Shown in pieces: positions 17,323-23,642 of a stretch of DNA of 32,538 nt. Below the pieces are notes generated by a model that saw nothing but the letters and a program-made list of their open reading frames with translations, made no database searches and was not told where the DNA came from. Within the stretch, counting starts at the first letter, position 1. Each line of letters opens with the position of its first letter. This DNA is from Oscillospiraceae bacterium. GTDB lineage: Bacteria > Bacillota > Clostridia > Oscillospirales > Acutalibacteraceae. The DNA is taken from positions 1-32,538 of the forward strand of contig JAQXHW010000108.1 of assembly GCA_029007475.1 (NCBI GenBank), written 5' to 3'. The translations under genes were made by a program, and so were the position numbers.

Positions 17323-17355
17323 TTATACAGAAATGATACAAGACTGATACAGCTA
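17323..17355 (+). promoter_or_regulatory. Direct-repeat operator: three T(T/G)ATACA-N4 boxes, 11-bp period, upstream of femX-like gene
   Basis: TTATACAGAAA TGATACAAGAC TGATACAGCTA at 17323, 17334 and 17345. Confidence 0.62.
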
Positions 17356-17361
17356 TGAAAC

Positions 17362-17392
17362 AAACCTCCTGTAAACTAAATGCAGGAGGTTT
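17362..17392 (+). promoter_or_regulatory. RBS-sequestering hairpin in the femX-like 5' UTR
   Basis: AAACCTCCTG-TAAACTAAATG-CAGGAGGTTT: perfect 10-bp stem that includes the AGGAGG Shine-Dalgarno (17384-17389) for ATG 17397. Confidence 0.6.
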
Positions 17393-17396
17393 GATT

Positions 17397-18383
17397 ATGG
17401 AAATTAACGAGTATGAGATTTACAATTTGAAGCATGAGAGAGGCTCCTTTATGCAGTCGCTGCTGTGGAGCGAGGTCAAAAGTAAGTGGAAGAGTGAGAT
17501 TGTAGTTGTGCGGGATTCCCTTGGAAATATTACCGCAGGAGCGCAGCTGCTTATCAGAAAAATACCCCTTGTTCCTTTTTCGTTTATGTATATTCCGAGA
17601 GGTCCTCTATGGGACAGGGAAAGTCCCGAAAGCCTCAGAATACTTTTCGGAAAAATCACCCAGGCGGCAAAAAGGCACAGATGCTTTTGTTTAAGAGCAG
17701 ATCCCCAAATTGACGAAATGGACTTCGAGAGCATAGAGCTTTTGACCGCCTTGGGATTTGAACACCACAAGGAGCGGGTAGGCTATGAAAATACCCAATG
17801 CAGAGAAAACTATATATTAAAAATCGGCGGCAGAAGCGAAGAGGAGGTTTTTGAGAGCTTTAAGCCAAAGTGCAGGTACAATATACGTTTGTCAAAGAGG
17901 AAGGGCGTGGAGTGCAAATTTTACGGCGAGGAAAAGTCGGAGGATTTTTACAAGCTGCTAAAGGAAACCGCAGAGCGTGATAAATTCGAAATTCGAAGCC
18001 GAGAATACTACGAAAAATTGCTTAGAGCTTTTGGGGAGAAAGCAAGACTCTGTATGTGCTATAAGGGCGAGGAGCCTCTTTCTGCCGCTATATATCTTGA
18101 GTACGGAAACAGGGCTACCTATTTAGTCGGAGCGTCCTCAGGCTCTCACCGTGACTATATGCCCAACTACCTTATGCAGTGGACCATGATAAAGCAGGCA
18201 ATAAGCAAAGCAGCGGCAATCTACGACTTCGGAGGTATTCCCTACTACTATGACGAAAACCATAGAAACTATGGAGTATACCGCTTCAAAAGGCAGTTTT
18301 CGGGAGAGGTTTTGACCTATGCGGGAGAATTCGATTACATTTTTTCAAAGAGGTTATATATGTTGGGAAAGCATTTTATATAG
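17397..18383 (+). CDS. FemAB/FemX-family peptidoglycan bridge aminoacyltransferase
   Basis: FMQSLLWSEVKSKW, FMYIPRGPLWD, FKPKCRYNIRLSKRKGV, GSHRDYMPNYLMQWTMIKQA, YDFGGIP, YGVYRFKRQFSGE are FemAB hallmarks. Confidence 0.92.
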   Translation: MEINEYEIYNLKHERGSFMQSLLWSEVKSKWKSEIVVVRDSLGNITAGAQLLIRKIPLVPFSFMYIPRGPLWDRESPESLRILFGKITQAAKRHRCFCLRADPQIDEMDFESIELLTALGFEHHKERVGYENTQCRENYILKIGGRSEEEVFESFKPKCRYNIRLSKRKGVECKFYGEEKSEDFYKLLKETAERDKFEIRSREYYEKLLRAFGEKARLCMCYKGEEPLSAAIYLEYGNRATYLVGASSGSHRDYMPNYLMQWTMIKQAISKAAAIYDFGGIPYYYDENHRNYGVYRFKRQFSGEVLTYAGEFDYIFSKRLYMLGKHFI

Positions 18384-18431: not shown

Positions 18432-19139
18432 TTATTCCGATTTTGTATCGGGACTTTGAGGTCGGGTTTTTATTAAAAATTCAAGGTCACGCTCAATGGC
18501 GTCCTTGCTGTTGCCCCAATCTGCGCCGCGGCTTCGATAGTCAAACATATTACAAAAACGGTTGGTGTCGTCCATGAGAAGCTGTAACTGATTTTTGCAG
18601 AGAGCGGCAGTATCTGCGTGGAAAGCCGCTTGATGCTTTGAGGGCAGATGCTTTATTGAAAGCTCGGTAACCAGTCGGTAGTGGTCAAGGCATATATACT
18701 CCTGACTGCGGTAGAGAGCTCTGAACTCCTCGCTCTTTATCCACTGGGCAAAGACCGTCTGCATAAAGTGCTCCACGTCAAAATGAATCCTGTCGCAGAT
18801 ATAGCAGGAGTCCTGCATATTTTTAAGAGCCAAAAGTTTTTTCTTGTCGGGCTTTGAGTTTACGTCCTTCGGCATATATTTATCCATTATCTCAGCAAGG
18901 TGAGTCTGCAAAATTAAGGCGTTGGGAAGCCTCTTTCCGACCTCAACAATCTTGAGAAAATGGCTCTGACAAAAGCCTTTTTGGTTGGTTTGAACTCTTG
19001 TTTCGGGGTCCATCATGGCAGAACCTGTGATAAATTCCGCGTACTGCTCCTCAAGCATAGCGTACATACGGCAAATAGGACAGCCCTCTTTAACTCCCCA
19101 AATATCGTTTACGGGTATTGTGCAAATGGTTTCTTTCAT
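18432..19139 (-). CDS. DUF6062-like Cys-rich protein of unknown function
   Basis: Two repeated CxxC...CxxH modules (CPIC...GFCQSHF; CYIC...YICLDHY); conserved-looking FDYRSRGADWGNSKDAIERDLEFL. Confidence 0.75.
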   Translation of the reverse strand: MKETICTIPVNDIWGVKEGCPICRMYAMLEEQYAEFITGSAMMDPETRVQTNQKGFCQSHFLKIVEVGKRLPNALILQTHLAEIMDKYMPKDVNSKPDKKKLLALKNMQDSCYICDRIHFDVEHFMQTVFAQWIKSEEFRALYRSQEYICLDHYRLVTELSIKHLPSKHQAAFHADTAALCKNQLQLLMDDTNRFCNMFDYRSRGADWGNSKDAIERDLEFLIKTRPQSPDTKSE

Positions 19140-20138: not shown

Positions 20139-21470
20139 ATGAAAATTAAACTTTTCTTTGCCATTGTTTTTTGCAAGGCAGTAAGATTTGCGGCAAAGCT
20201 GTTGGGAAAAGGCTCAAGCCTTCCCGGTCAGCTTACCCTTAAGTTTTTCCCCGATGTGTTAAAATACATAAAGCTGCCCGAAAAGGTTATCGCCGTAACA
20301 GGCAGCTCGGGAAAAACCTCTACTGTTGAGCTTATCGCTCAGGTGCTTAAAAGCGCGGGGGTAAGACTTGCCTATAACAAGGAGGGCTCTAATCAGATTG
20401 AGGGCATTACCACTCTGCTTCTCTGTGCTTCAAGCCTTTCGGGTAAAGTAAAGGCTGATGTTGTGCTTTTAGAGAGTGACGAGAGATATGCCCGCCATAC
20501 CTTCAAATACTTTAAGCCTACTCAGCTTATTATCACAAATTTATACCGCGACCAGCTTACCCGCAACGGCCATCCCGAGTGGGTTTACGATGTGATTTCC
20601 CAGTGTATCGACGACTCCATGGAGCTTATCCTTAATGCCGACGACCCCTTAGTTTCCAAATTCGGCAAGGATAGGAAAAACGTTCGCTATTTCGGGGCGG
20701 ACAGGCTTCCTTTTGATACCGAGAAAAACACCTCTGTTTACGACGACGGAAAGTACTGCCCCTGCTGTAAGGCTCCTATGACTTACTCGTACTATCACTT
20801 TAACCATTTAGGCTCCTATGAGTGCAAAAACTGCGGTCATAAGAAGCAGGCAACGGACTGGACCATTACCGACGCAAGTCTTGAGGAAGGCTTTGTTGTT
20901 ATTAACGGAAAGTATAAGGTTGAGCTTGCGTTCTCAAGTATATATCATTGTTATAATACTCTTGTTGCCTTTGCGGCGGCGGATATTGCAGGAGTTGCGC
21001 CTGAACAGGCGGTTAAGGCTCTCAGCGATTACGATTTGAAAAGCGGAAGAATAGTTAATTTCGTTTTGGGAAATCATGAGGGAACTCTCCTTGTTTCAAA
21101 GCATGAAAACTCCGTTTCCTACGACCAGTCAATCCGCGTGGCAAACTCCGATAAGAGGGACTGTACCGTTGTAGTTATGGTTGACGCCATAAGCCGAAAG
21201 TACAAAACCTATGAAACCTCATGGCTGTGGGATATTGATTTTGAGCTTCTTAAAAGCGACAACATAAAAGAAATTCTCCTTGTGGGTCAATATCACGAGG
21301 ATCTTTTAAGGCGCTTCTCCTTTACCGATATTAACGAGGAAATTATTAAGTCCTACGAAAAGGTATCCGACGCAGTCGAATACTTAAAGAAAAACGGAAG
21401 CAGCTTTGTCTATGTAATCACCTGCTTCTCGGACAAGCAGAAATTCTTGGAATTGACGGAGGTTAAGTAA
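20139..21470 (+). CDS. MurT-like Mur ligase (lipid II isoglutaminyl synthase MurT homologue, atypical)
   Basis: VTGSSGKTSTVELI P-loop, ITNLYRDQLTRNGH, LNADDPLVSKF, Cys4 ribbon CPCCKAP...CKNCG, C-terminal domain with SWLWDIDFELL; adjacent to gatD-like gene. Confidence 0.88.
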   Translation: MKIKLFFAIVFCKAVRFAAKLLGKGSSLPGQLTLKFFPDVLKYIKLPEKVIAVTGSSGKTSTVELIAQVLKSAGVRLAYNKEGSNQIEGITTLLLCASSLSGKVKADVVLLESDERYARHTFKYFKPTQLIITNLYRDQLTRNGHPEWVYDVISQCIDDSMELILNADDPLVSKFGKDRKNVRYFGADRLPFDTEKNTSVYDDGKYCPCCKAPMTYSYYHFNHLGSYECKNCGHKKQATDWTITDASLEEGFVVINGKYKVELAFSSIYHCYNTLVAFAAADIAGVAPEQAVKALSDYDLKSGRIVNFVLGNHEGTLLVSKHENSVSYDQSIRVANSDKRDCTVVVMVDAISRKYKTYETSWLWDIDFELLKSDNIKEILLVGQYHEDLLRRFSFTDINEEIIKSYEKVSDAVEYLKKNGSSFVYVITCFSDKQKFLELTEVK

Positions 21471-22105
21471 TGAGGATTTTATACTTATACTATGACATTA
21501 TGAACCTCTACGGAGAAAGCGGAAATATTCGCATGATTGAGAGAATGTTCCGTGAGGCCGGCAAGGATGTTTCTGTTGAGGTAAAGACCGTAACCGATAG
21601 GAAAATCGACTTTTTGAAATACGATTTTATTTACTGCGGCGCAGGTAGTGAGAATTCCCGAGACGTGGTAATCAGACATCTCAGCTTCTTTAAGGATAGC
21701 CTAAAGGCGGCGTATGAAAAGGGTACGGTTATGCTCTTTACAGGAAACTCCTACGAGATGCTGGGTAAGGAAATAGCAGTAGGGGATAGAAAAATTGAGG
21801 GTATCGGACTCTTTGATTTTACCGTAAAAGAGCAGAGGGTAGACAGATACTCCGGAGACGTTACCTTTAGGTGCAATCTTTTTGAGGGCGAGCTTATTGG
21901 CTATATAAATAAGTGCTCGGAAGCAGAGGGCGTGAAAAATCCCCTGTTCGAGATTGAGCAGGTGGTAGGAACGGTTAAGACCGGAAGTGAGGGCATACAT
22001 GAGAAAAACTTCTTCGGAACTCAGATTATCGGACCGATTTTGGTAAAAAATCCGAGCTTTGCAAACTATATTGTAAATCTCACTCTAAAAACCTTAGAGG
22101 AATAA
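21470..22105 (+). CDS. GatD-like class I GATase-fold protein, predicted catalytically inactive
   Basis: LYYDIMNLYGESGNIRMI, IYCGAGSENSRD, IEGIGLFDF, EGIHEKNFFGTQIIGPILVKNP align with GatD; the CGGYQ and YLHGP catalytic motifs are replaced. Confidence 0.85.
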   Translation: MRILYLYYDIMNLYGESGNIRMIERMFREAGKDVSVEVKTVTDRKIDFLKYDFIYCGAGSENSRDVVIRHLSFFKDSLKAAYEKGTVMLFTGNSYEMLGKEIAVGDRKIEGIGLFDFTVKEQRVDRYSGDVTFRCNLFEGELIGYINKCSEAEGVKNPLFEIEQVVGTVKTGSEGIHEKNFFGTQIIGPILVKNPSFANYIVNLTLKTLEE

Positions 22106-23276: not shown

Positions 23277-23305
23277 TTGACAAAAGCCGCTTTAGGTGAT
23301 ATTCT
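23277..23305 (+). promoter_or_regulatory. Promoter of T-box leader transcript
   Basis: TTGACA - 17 bp - TATTCT just upstream of the T-box leader. Confidence 0.7.
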
Positions 23306-23321
23306 CATACACAACACATTG

Positions 23322-23584
23322 AAAAGCTGTGACGAAGACGGTCGTGGTGCGGATCTTAAAGAGAGTGCGGAGGGTGAAAACGCACATTGAAGCACCAAGT
23401 TGACTTATCACTTCTGAGCCGGAGCCCGAAAGATTAATCGAGTAGACGCTCCCGTAGCTGCTGCGTTAAAGCGTAAGGTTTGTTTGAACCTGAGGGGTGC
23501 CTTTATTATGGGCACAATTTGAGTGGTACCGCGAGTAAGATTTTACCCGTCTCAAAGTCTAAAGACTTTGGGACGGTTTTTTGT
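23322..23584 (+). ncRNA. T-box riboswitch leader, probable Leu (UUG) specifier
   Basis: Stem I base GTGACGAAG.../...CTTATCAC with distal AGAGAG...GAGGGTGAAAA; T-box core GAGTGGTACCGCGAG at 23521; terminator CCGTCTCAAAGTC-TAAA-GACTTTGGGACGG-TTTTTT. Confidence 0.93.
23547..23582 (+). terminator. T-box regulated intrinsic terminator
   Basis: CCGTCTCAAAGTCTAAAGACTTTGGGACGGTTTTTT. Confidence 0.92.
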
Positions 23585-23642
23585 TTATTAACGCCCATAG
23601 AGGCGCAACAATATTTTTATGTTTCAGAAAGGAGCAAACATC

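Follow-up and report, generated by a model that had tools for sequence, protein, structure and literature searches.

A MurT/GatD-type gene pair of Clostridia whose GatD-like subunit lacks the catalytic cysteine and histidine

In a stretch of 32,538 nucleotides from an Oscillospiraceae genome (hereafter the window), we found a two-gene operon which we read as a glutamine-independent ligase of the MurT/GatD type, whatever its nucleophile, in which GatD is non-catalytic. We give this core claim a probability of about 0.62; the rival proposals for the nucleophile and for the acceptor overlap with it. The type of operon and the fold are known, from the lipid II isoglutaminyl synthase MurT/GatD of S. 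aureus, S. pneumoniae and S. pyogenes. What is new is a clade-wide dead GatD together with a remodelled MurT, and a search of the open-access literature did not find an earlier description of a catalytically dead GatD family.

The murT-like gene, which encodes the ligase partner (443 aa), occupies positions 20139 to 21470 of the forward strand, and the gatD-like gene (211 aa, a class I GATase without catalytic Cys and His) positions 21470 to 22105 of the same strand. The stop of the former and the start of the latter share one base (TAATG), and a GGAGG at 21458-21462 (forward strand), within the 3' end of murT, is the likely ribosome-binding site of gatD. As the initial annotation had stated, the gatD-like reading frame is intact (ATG at 21470, stop at 22105). 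The murT-like product matches the Pfam families Mur_ligase_M (1e-12) and MurT_C (1.3e-20) as well as the MurT of the PDB (1.7e-50), and the top structural matches of its AF2 model (pLDDT 87.8) are MurT structures. The gatD-like product matches Pfam GATase_3; phmmer aligns its residues 2-207 with the PDB chains of S. aureus, S. pyogenes and S. pneumoniae GatD (E about 1e-20), and its AF2 model (pLDDT 96.5) fits the GatD structures with a TMq of 0.86-0.90, which agrees with the earlier remark that the rest of the protein aligns well. The strict NCBIfam equivalog cut-offs are missed widely (95.5 against 400 bits for GatD, 210.5 against 800 for MurT). The fold and operon of the MurT/GatD superfamily are present: a GATase_3 fold encoded behind a MurT_C Mur ligase with a zinc ribbon, the two genes adjoining.

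The positions of the catalytic Cys and His were assigned with alignments to four distinct GatD sequences of the PDB, with which the fold match agrees. Against S. aureus GatD, LTICGGYQFLGK stands opposite LFTGNSYEMLGK, so that C94 becomes G92, and GTYLHGPIL of S. aureus aligns with GTQIIGPIL, so that H189 becomes I187; these are the equivalents that the comparison with S. aureus and S. pneumoniae GatD, proposed as a check in the initial annotation, was meant to find. That annotation had given Gly/Thr for the nucleophile and Ile for the catalytic His: Gly and Ile are right, while the Thr sits at the position of I93. On the forward strand, the elbow which once carried the nucleophile and now reads TGNS (residues 91-94, G92 replacing Cys, identified by alignment and by conservation in the clade), lies at 21740-21751, and the Ile187 codon at 22028-22030. 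The codon of Arg126, which corresponds to the glutamine-capturing R128 of S. aureus (PMC5871853) and is kept, lies at 21845-21847.

This protein is not one odd reading frame: it belongs to a large conserved clade (clade A) found in Oscillospirales and in some other families of the class Clostridia, which answers the earlier proposal to look for the variant across Clostridia and goes beyond it, as does the concerted change of MurT described below. Among 59 relatives, MurT_C and GatD co-occur in the same 24 genomes; 17 of these GatDs have a TGN elbow (SGN in one) and lack the His, one more (L026) is cut short by the end of its contig, and two are distant clade B GatDs, likewise without Cys and His. 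Searching GTDB genomes with the MurT alignment gave at least 528 relatives; the 80 best of them, retained as named loci, are hence selected for similarity to the query. GatD is present in all of these best 80, always with the TGN elbow and never with the His, one sequence being cut at the second site. They come from isolates and MAGs; among them are Ruminococcus bromii (L087, L100, L103), two species of Massiliimalia, M. massiliensis and M. timonensis (L067, L068), and a large number of MAGs from Oscillospiraceae. In the 75 of 81 loci where both genes were clustered by the gene caller, gatD follows murT immediately and on the same strand. In the class-wide sample, the MurT model scored 12 genomes at 575-806 bits, two at 378-394 and the others at 332 or less. 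The GatDs of the 12 top scorers lack Cys and His and have the TGN elbow (LGN in one), and those of the next two lack both residues as well; of 16 lower scorers which we read, 14 have Cys and His, one has Cys with Asp for His, and one is of clade B. Clade A was not found outside the class Clostridia in 398 sampled genomes of the phylum, where it was matched only in the window genome and in one other (G048), both of this class; the best 28 other matches, when read, were canonical, one A2, or cases of Cys-only loss.

The dead site is constant in this clade. G92 and N93 are invariant in the 97 non-redundant clade A GatDs with data (98 sequences), T91 is found in 95 of 97, and the position of His189 holds T, I, V, S or L in 96 of 96 and never His. 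With these counts, neither chance nor sequencing error comes near to explaining the substitution of Cys and His. The position of the third triad residue varies between D and E in the clade, in the GatD as in the MurT alternative: the position of S. pneumoniae GatD Asp32 is E in 55, D in 42 and S in 1 of 98, and that of S. aureus MurT D349 (residue 359) is D in 73 and E in 37 of 110, with Glu in the window at both. The dN/dS ratio is 0.04-0.19 where it could be estimated, with dS near saturation and 3 of 8 pairs giving no estimate. Hence the pair is under purifying selection, and the dead site is a maintained state and not decay. A degenerating pseudogene or an assembly artefact, for which nothing speaks beyond the loss of the catalytic residues themselves, has a negligible probability in view of 80 named loci from isolates and MAGs, of a dN/dS well below 1, and of an elbow which is among the most conserved stretches of the protein. 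A GatD which would still be a glutaminase with relocated catalytic residues is scarcely more credible. In its favour, R126, which captures glutamine, is kept in 97 of 97, and a His is found two residues upstream of the old site in 62 of 98. In the window protein this shifted residue is a Gln, however, and the two Cys which the initial annotation named as possible rescuers fail: Cys56 (in IYCGAG) is Cys in 23 of 98 sequences and Cys149 (in YINKCSEAEG) in 79 of 98, and the 98 clade A GatDs have no conserved Cys or His there that could take over catalysis. In S. aureus, moreover, C94S or H189A alone is inactive (PMC5871853, PMC6113224). With both catalytic residues lost throughout the clade, the pseudo-glutaminase proposed earlier is well supported.

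We compared the MurTs of 110 clade A sequences with 20 canonical MurTs (all coordinates that follow are on the forward strand). The ligase residues K59, T60, N85, D114, E115, N273 and R304 are present in 110 of 110. The P-loop (GSSGKT, residues 55-60, 20301-20318, with Lys59 invariant), the acceptor-binding Asn, the Mg-binding Asp-Glu, the hinge Arg and the Cys4 zinc ribbon (C207, C210, C229 and C232, each in 110 of 110, 20757-20834) are thus retained, and so is the acidic gate facing GatD (D203 and D365 in 110 of 110, D or E at 359); the pair also shares its interface aromatic with the MurT/GatD of S. aureus, S. pneumoniae and S. pyogenes. In contrast, the loops at residues 137-146, 321-328 and 352-359 differ from those of canonical MurT. 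In the "channel" loop RDQLTRNGHP (residues 137-146, 20547-20576; role in PMC6085368), T141 (109 of 110), N143 and H145 (110 of 110 each) replace the canonical D, Y and E. The loop KHENS of the C-terminal domain (residues 321-325, 21099-21113, 110 of 110) is two residues longer than the canonical KNP. The stretch from SRKY (residues 352-355, each in 110 of 110) through E359, the position of S. aureus D349, lies at 21192-21215, and puts a basic motif where canonical MurT has an acidic one; finally, R116 stands for the canonical A. Altogether 12 residues (T141, N143, H145, H322, E323, S325, Y328, S352, R353, K354, Y355 and R116) show no or hardly any variation in the 110 sequences, and the 20 canonical MurTs show just scattered single matches to them, in variable columns. 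In published structures these loops flank the MurT-GatD cavity, the first forming the proposed ammonia channel, the second lying near the ATP ribose and the third in the D349 region (PMC6085368, PMC6113224). The cavity-facing loops of MurT have changed in concert.

The combined samples hold 53 genomes with a clade A MurT, and a canonical second copy was found in none of them; for 26 of the 53, which are single-sample finds, the clade was assigned by the MurT score (at least 544 bits) and the GatD was not read, and in one (G034) the GatD is truncated. One of the 53 (G026) has an additional clade B pair. Most members are therefore the sole murT-gatD of their genome. The second canonical pair which the initial annotation proposed to look for was not found in the window genome, in an assembly 93% complete in 190 contigs; this is strong and not absolute evidence, and the many near-complete genomes are better evidence. 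The genome of R. bromii (99% complete) has a single MurT match and this pair alone. Among the other genomes, a MurT outside clade A is present in about one half of those in the class sample and in about one seventh of those in the order sample. The mutual exclusion of clade A and canonical copies suggests a replacement in the same role, with the reservation that these genomes share ancestry and that this is not a formal test. In the MurT tree (a quick search with no bootstrap and some long branches), one branch with an SH-aLRT of 98 separates the canonical sequences from all those with a dead GatD (A, A2 and B), in keeping with a single change. Clade B (Vescimonas fastidiosa WP_212820884.1 with WP_212820886.1; L023, L027, L151) resembles clade A by its TGN elbow, its missing His and, mostly, the His of its MurT channel loop; unlike clade A, it has other loops at 321-359 and no SRKY motif, and its sequences are distant. 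The clade B pair of V. fastidiosa lies on an 861-kb replicon (L242:2140-4193), with a GatD annotated as "hypothetical protein" (TGNAMEVFG, TYLLGP) and RDSLQRNAHPE in its MurT. In another genus, what is apparently a second, independent loss of Cys is seen at L221 (G871) and L231:1450-2244 (G956), where the elbow is AVGLGFQ, with Cys changed to Gly and the His kept; the MurT loops of L231 are canonical (DQLDRYSE, KNPIGVNE). We also noticed, on the plasmid pRUMAL02 of Ruminococcus albus 7, which is typed as conjugative, a murT-gatD with a canonical GatD near an IS5 transposase (L243:1646-3732).

Among the 80 loci, no conserved gene neighbour indicates a substrate or the supply of a nucleophile. 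In the window, a FemAB/FemX-like aminoacyltransferase (17355-18383) lies a few genes upstream of murT, and is not widely present at other clade A loci. A DUF6062 protein is encoded near the pair on the opposite strand (18432-19139), as in six near loci. A possible structured leader (23280-23500) precedes a cupin-acyl-CoA synthetase gene at 23619, and no Rfam match at the gathering threshold was found for it. The MurE of the genus of the window (L177-L192, the window genome being L192) has EDNSR, against mostly SDNPR in the order; this change is not tied to the pair, as all the genus members read have it, with or without the pair.

How might such a pair work? MurT would still use ATP to activate a carboxylate, which by descent would be the D-Glu alpha-carboxyl of lipid II; GatD would be the structural partner which MurT needs to work; and the nitrogen nucleophile would enter directly instead of being cut from glutamine, possibly as free ammonia or ammonium by way of the acidic gate that has been kept. 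In S. aureus, glutaminase or glutamine-dependent amidation is lost with each of the changes C94G, C94S, C94A and H189A (PMC3266927, PMC6113224, PMC5871853). According to Munch et al. 2012 (PMC3266927), the MurT/GatD-C94G complex can no longer use glutamine, yet with ammonia at pH 8.5 it continues to amidate lipid II, and GatD is physically required even for this reaction. This means that a GatD without glutaminase activity can be a working subunit. Likewise, in human carbamoyl phosphate synthetase 1 (CPS1), a synthetase that uses ammonia has retained a class I GATase domain which is inactive, although that synthetase is unrelated, acts in another pathway and forms one polypeptide with the domain (PMC4655335). 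These two precedents are why our preference goes to a ligase that is independent of glutamine and has a GatD with no catalytic role; here GatD has retained its fold and several of its interface and capture residues. Since the C94G complex keeps ammonia-dependent amidation, the earlier conclusion that the pair is unlikely to be a standard complex for amidating the D-Glu of lipid II is not a necessary one. The laboratory mutant has the same Cys-to-Gly change as our protein; here, the change is natural, the His is lost as well, and MurT has co-evolved.

For the nucleophile and the acceptor, we infer what they may be. Free ammonia or ammonium is our single best guess and the most economical, held tentatively. 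In S. aureus, free ammonia is effective only at pH 8.5 and not at 7.5 (PMC3266927). Against a mere change in the source of NH3, some 12 newly invariant MurT residues facing GatD should not then be needed; R353-K354 would be a poor neighbour for NH4+; and the L231 lineage, with its own Cys-to-Gly loss, keeps canonical MurT loops, which means, for this one lineage, that losing Cys does not by itself force MurT to be remodelled. The extent of this remodelling and the new basic pair R353-K354, which could bind a carboxylate, are why we hold a primary amine or an amino acid to be nearly as likely a nucleophile. It would be joined to the alpha-carboxyl of D-Glu in the peptidoglycan precursor, the altered loops, which line the GatD-facing cavity (PMC6085368, PMC6113224), holding the larger nucleophile. 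This proposal has its own counter-arguments: the profile alignment (hhalign) with MurC, MurD, MurE and MurF gave registers which disagree among the four and did not bring out a likeness of the loops to an amino-acid site, and a conserved nearby gene supplying the nucleophile was not found. A little more speculative is the wider form of this idea, in which clade A would be a neofunctionalised MurT ligase joining not ammonia but an amine or amino acid to the alpha-carboxyl of D-Glu or to another carboxylate, with the dead glutaminase as a lid on the nucleophile site. That the acceptor itself has changed, to a carboxylate other than the D-Glu of lipid II, we consider rather unlikely. The altered loops do include the DNADD region, for which a contact with stem-peptide residue 3 has been proposed in S. 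aureus (PMC6113224), and in this region the MurTs of clades A, A2 and B are all unlike the canonical ones. Yet Asn85, which binds the acceptor carboxylate, and D114/E115 are invariant, and clade A and canonical copies were not found together in the 53 genomes, which fits a replacement in the same role.

Some pathogens cannot live without MurT/GatD, which is assumed to depend on glutamine. In the pair described here, the ATP-using half is intact and rebuilt, while the ammonia-releasing half has lost its catalytic residues for good, and the pair probably does not take its nitrogen from glutamine. If our preferred reading of a glutamine-independent ligase is true, nitrogen supply and ligation can be uncoupled in MurT/GatD, as in CPS1, and the automatic naming as "glutamine amidotransferase" is wrong at this step. 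If clade A were instead a neofunctionalised ligase, it would be a candidate for the step making alpha-carboxyl-substituted peptidoglycans, for which we know of no enzyme. Many gut and rumen bacteria, R. bromii included, carry the dead-GatD pair, and clade A seems to have taken the place of the canonical pair in them. The literature on the nitrogen source of R. bromii and on the diamine route of Selenomonas offered nothing decisive that we could find. R. bromii is cultured and carries the dead-GatD pair alone; the pair would be a natural test of the reason why MurT requires GatD even with ammonia freely available.
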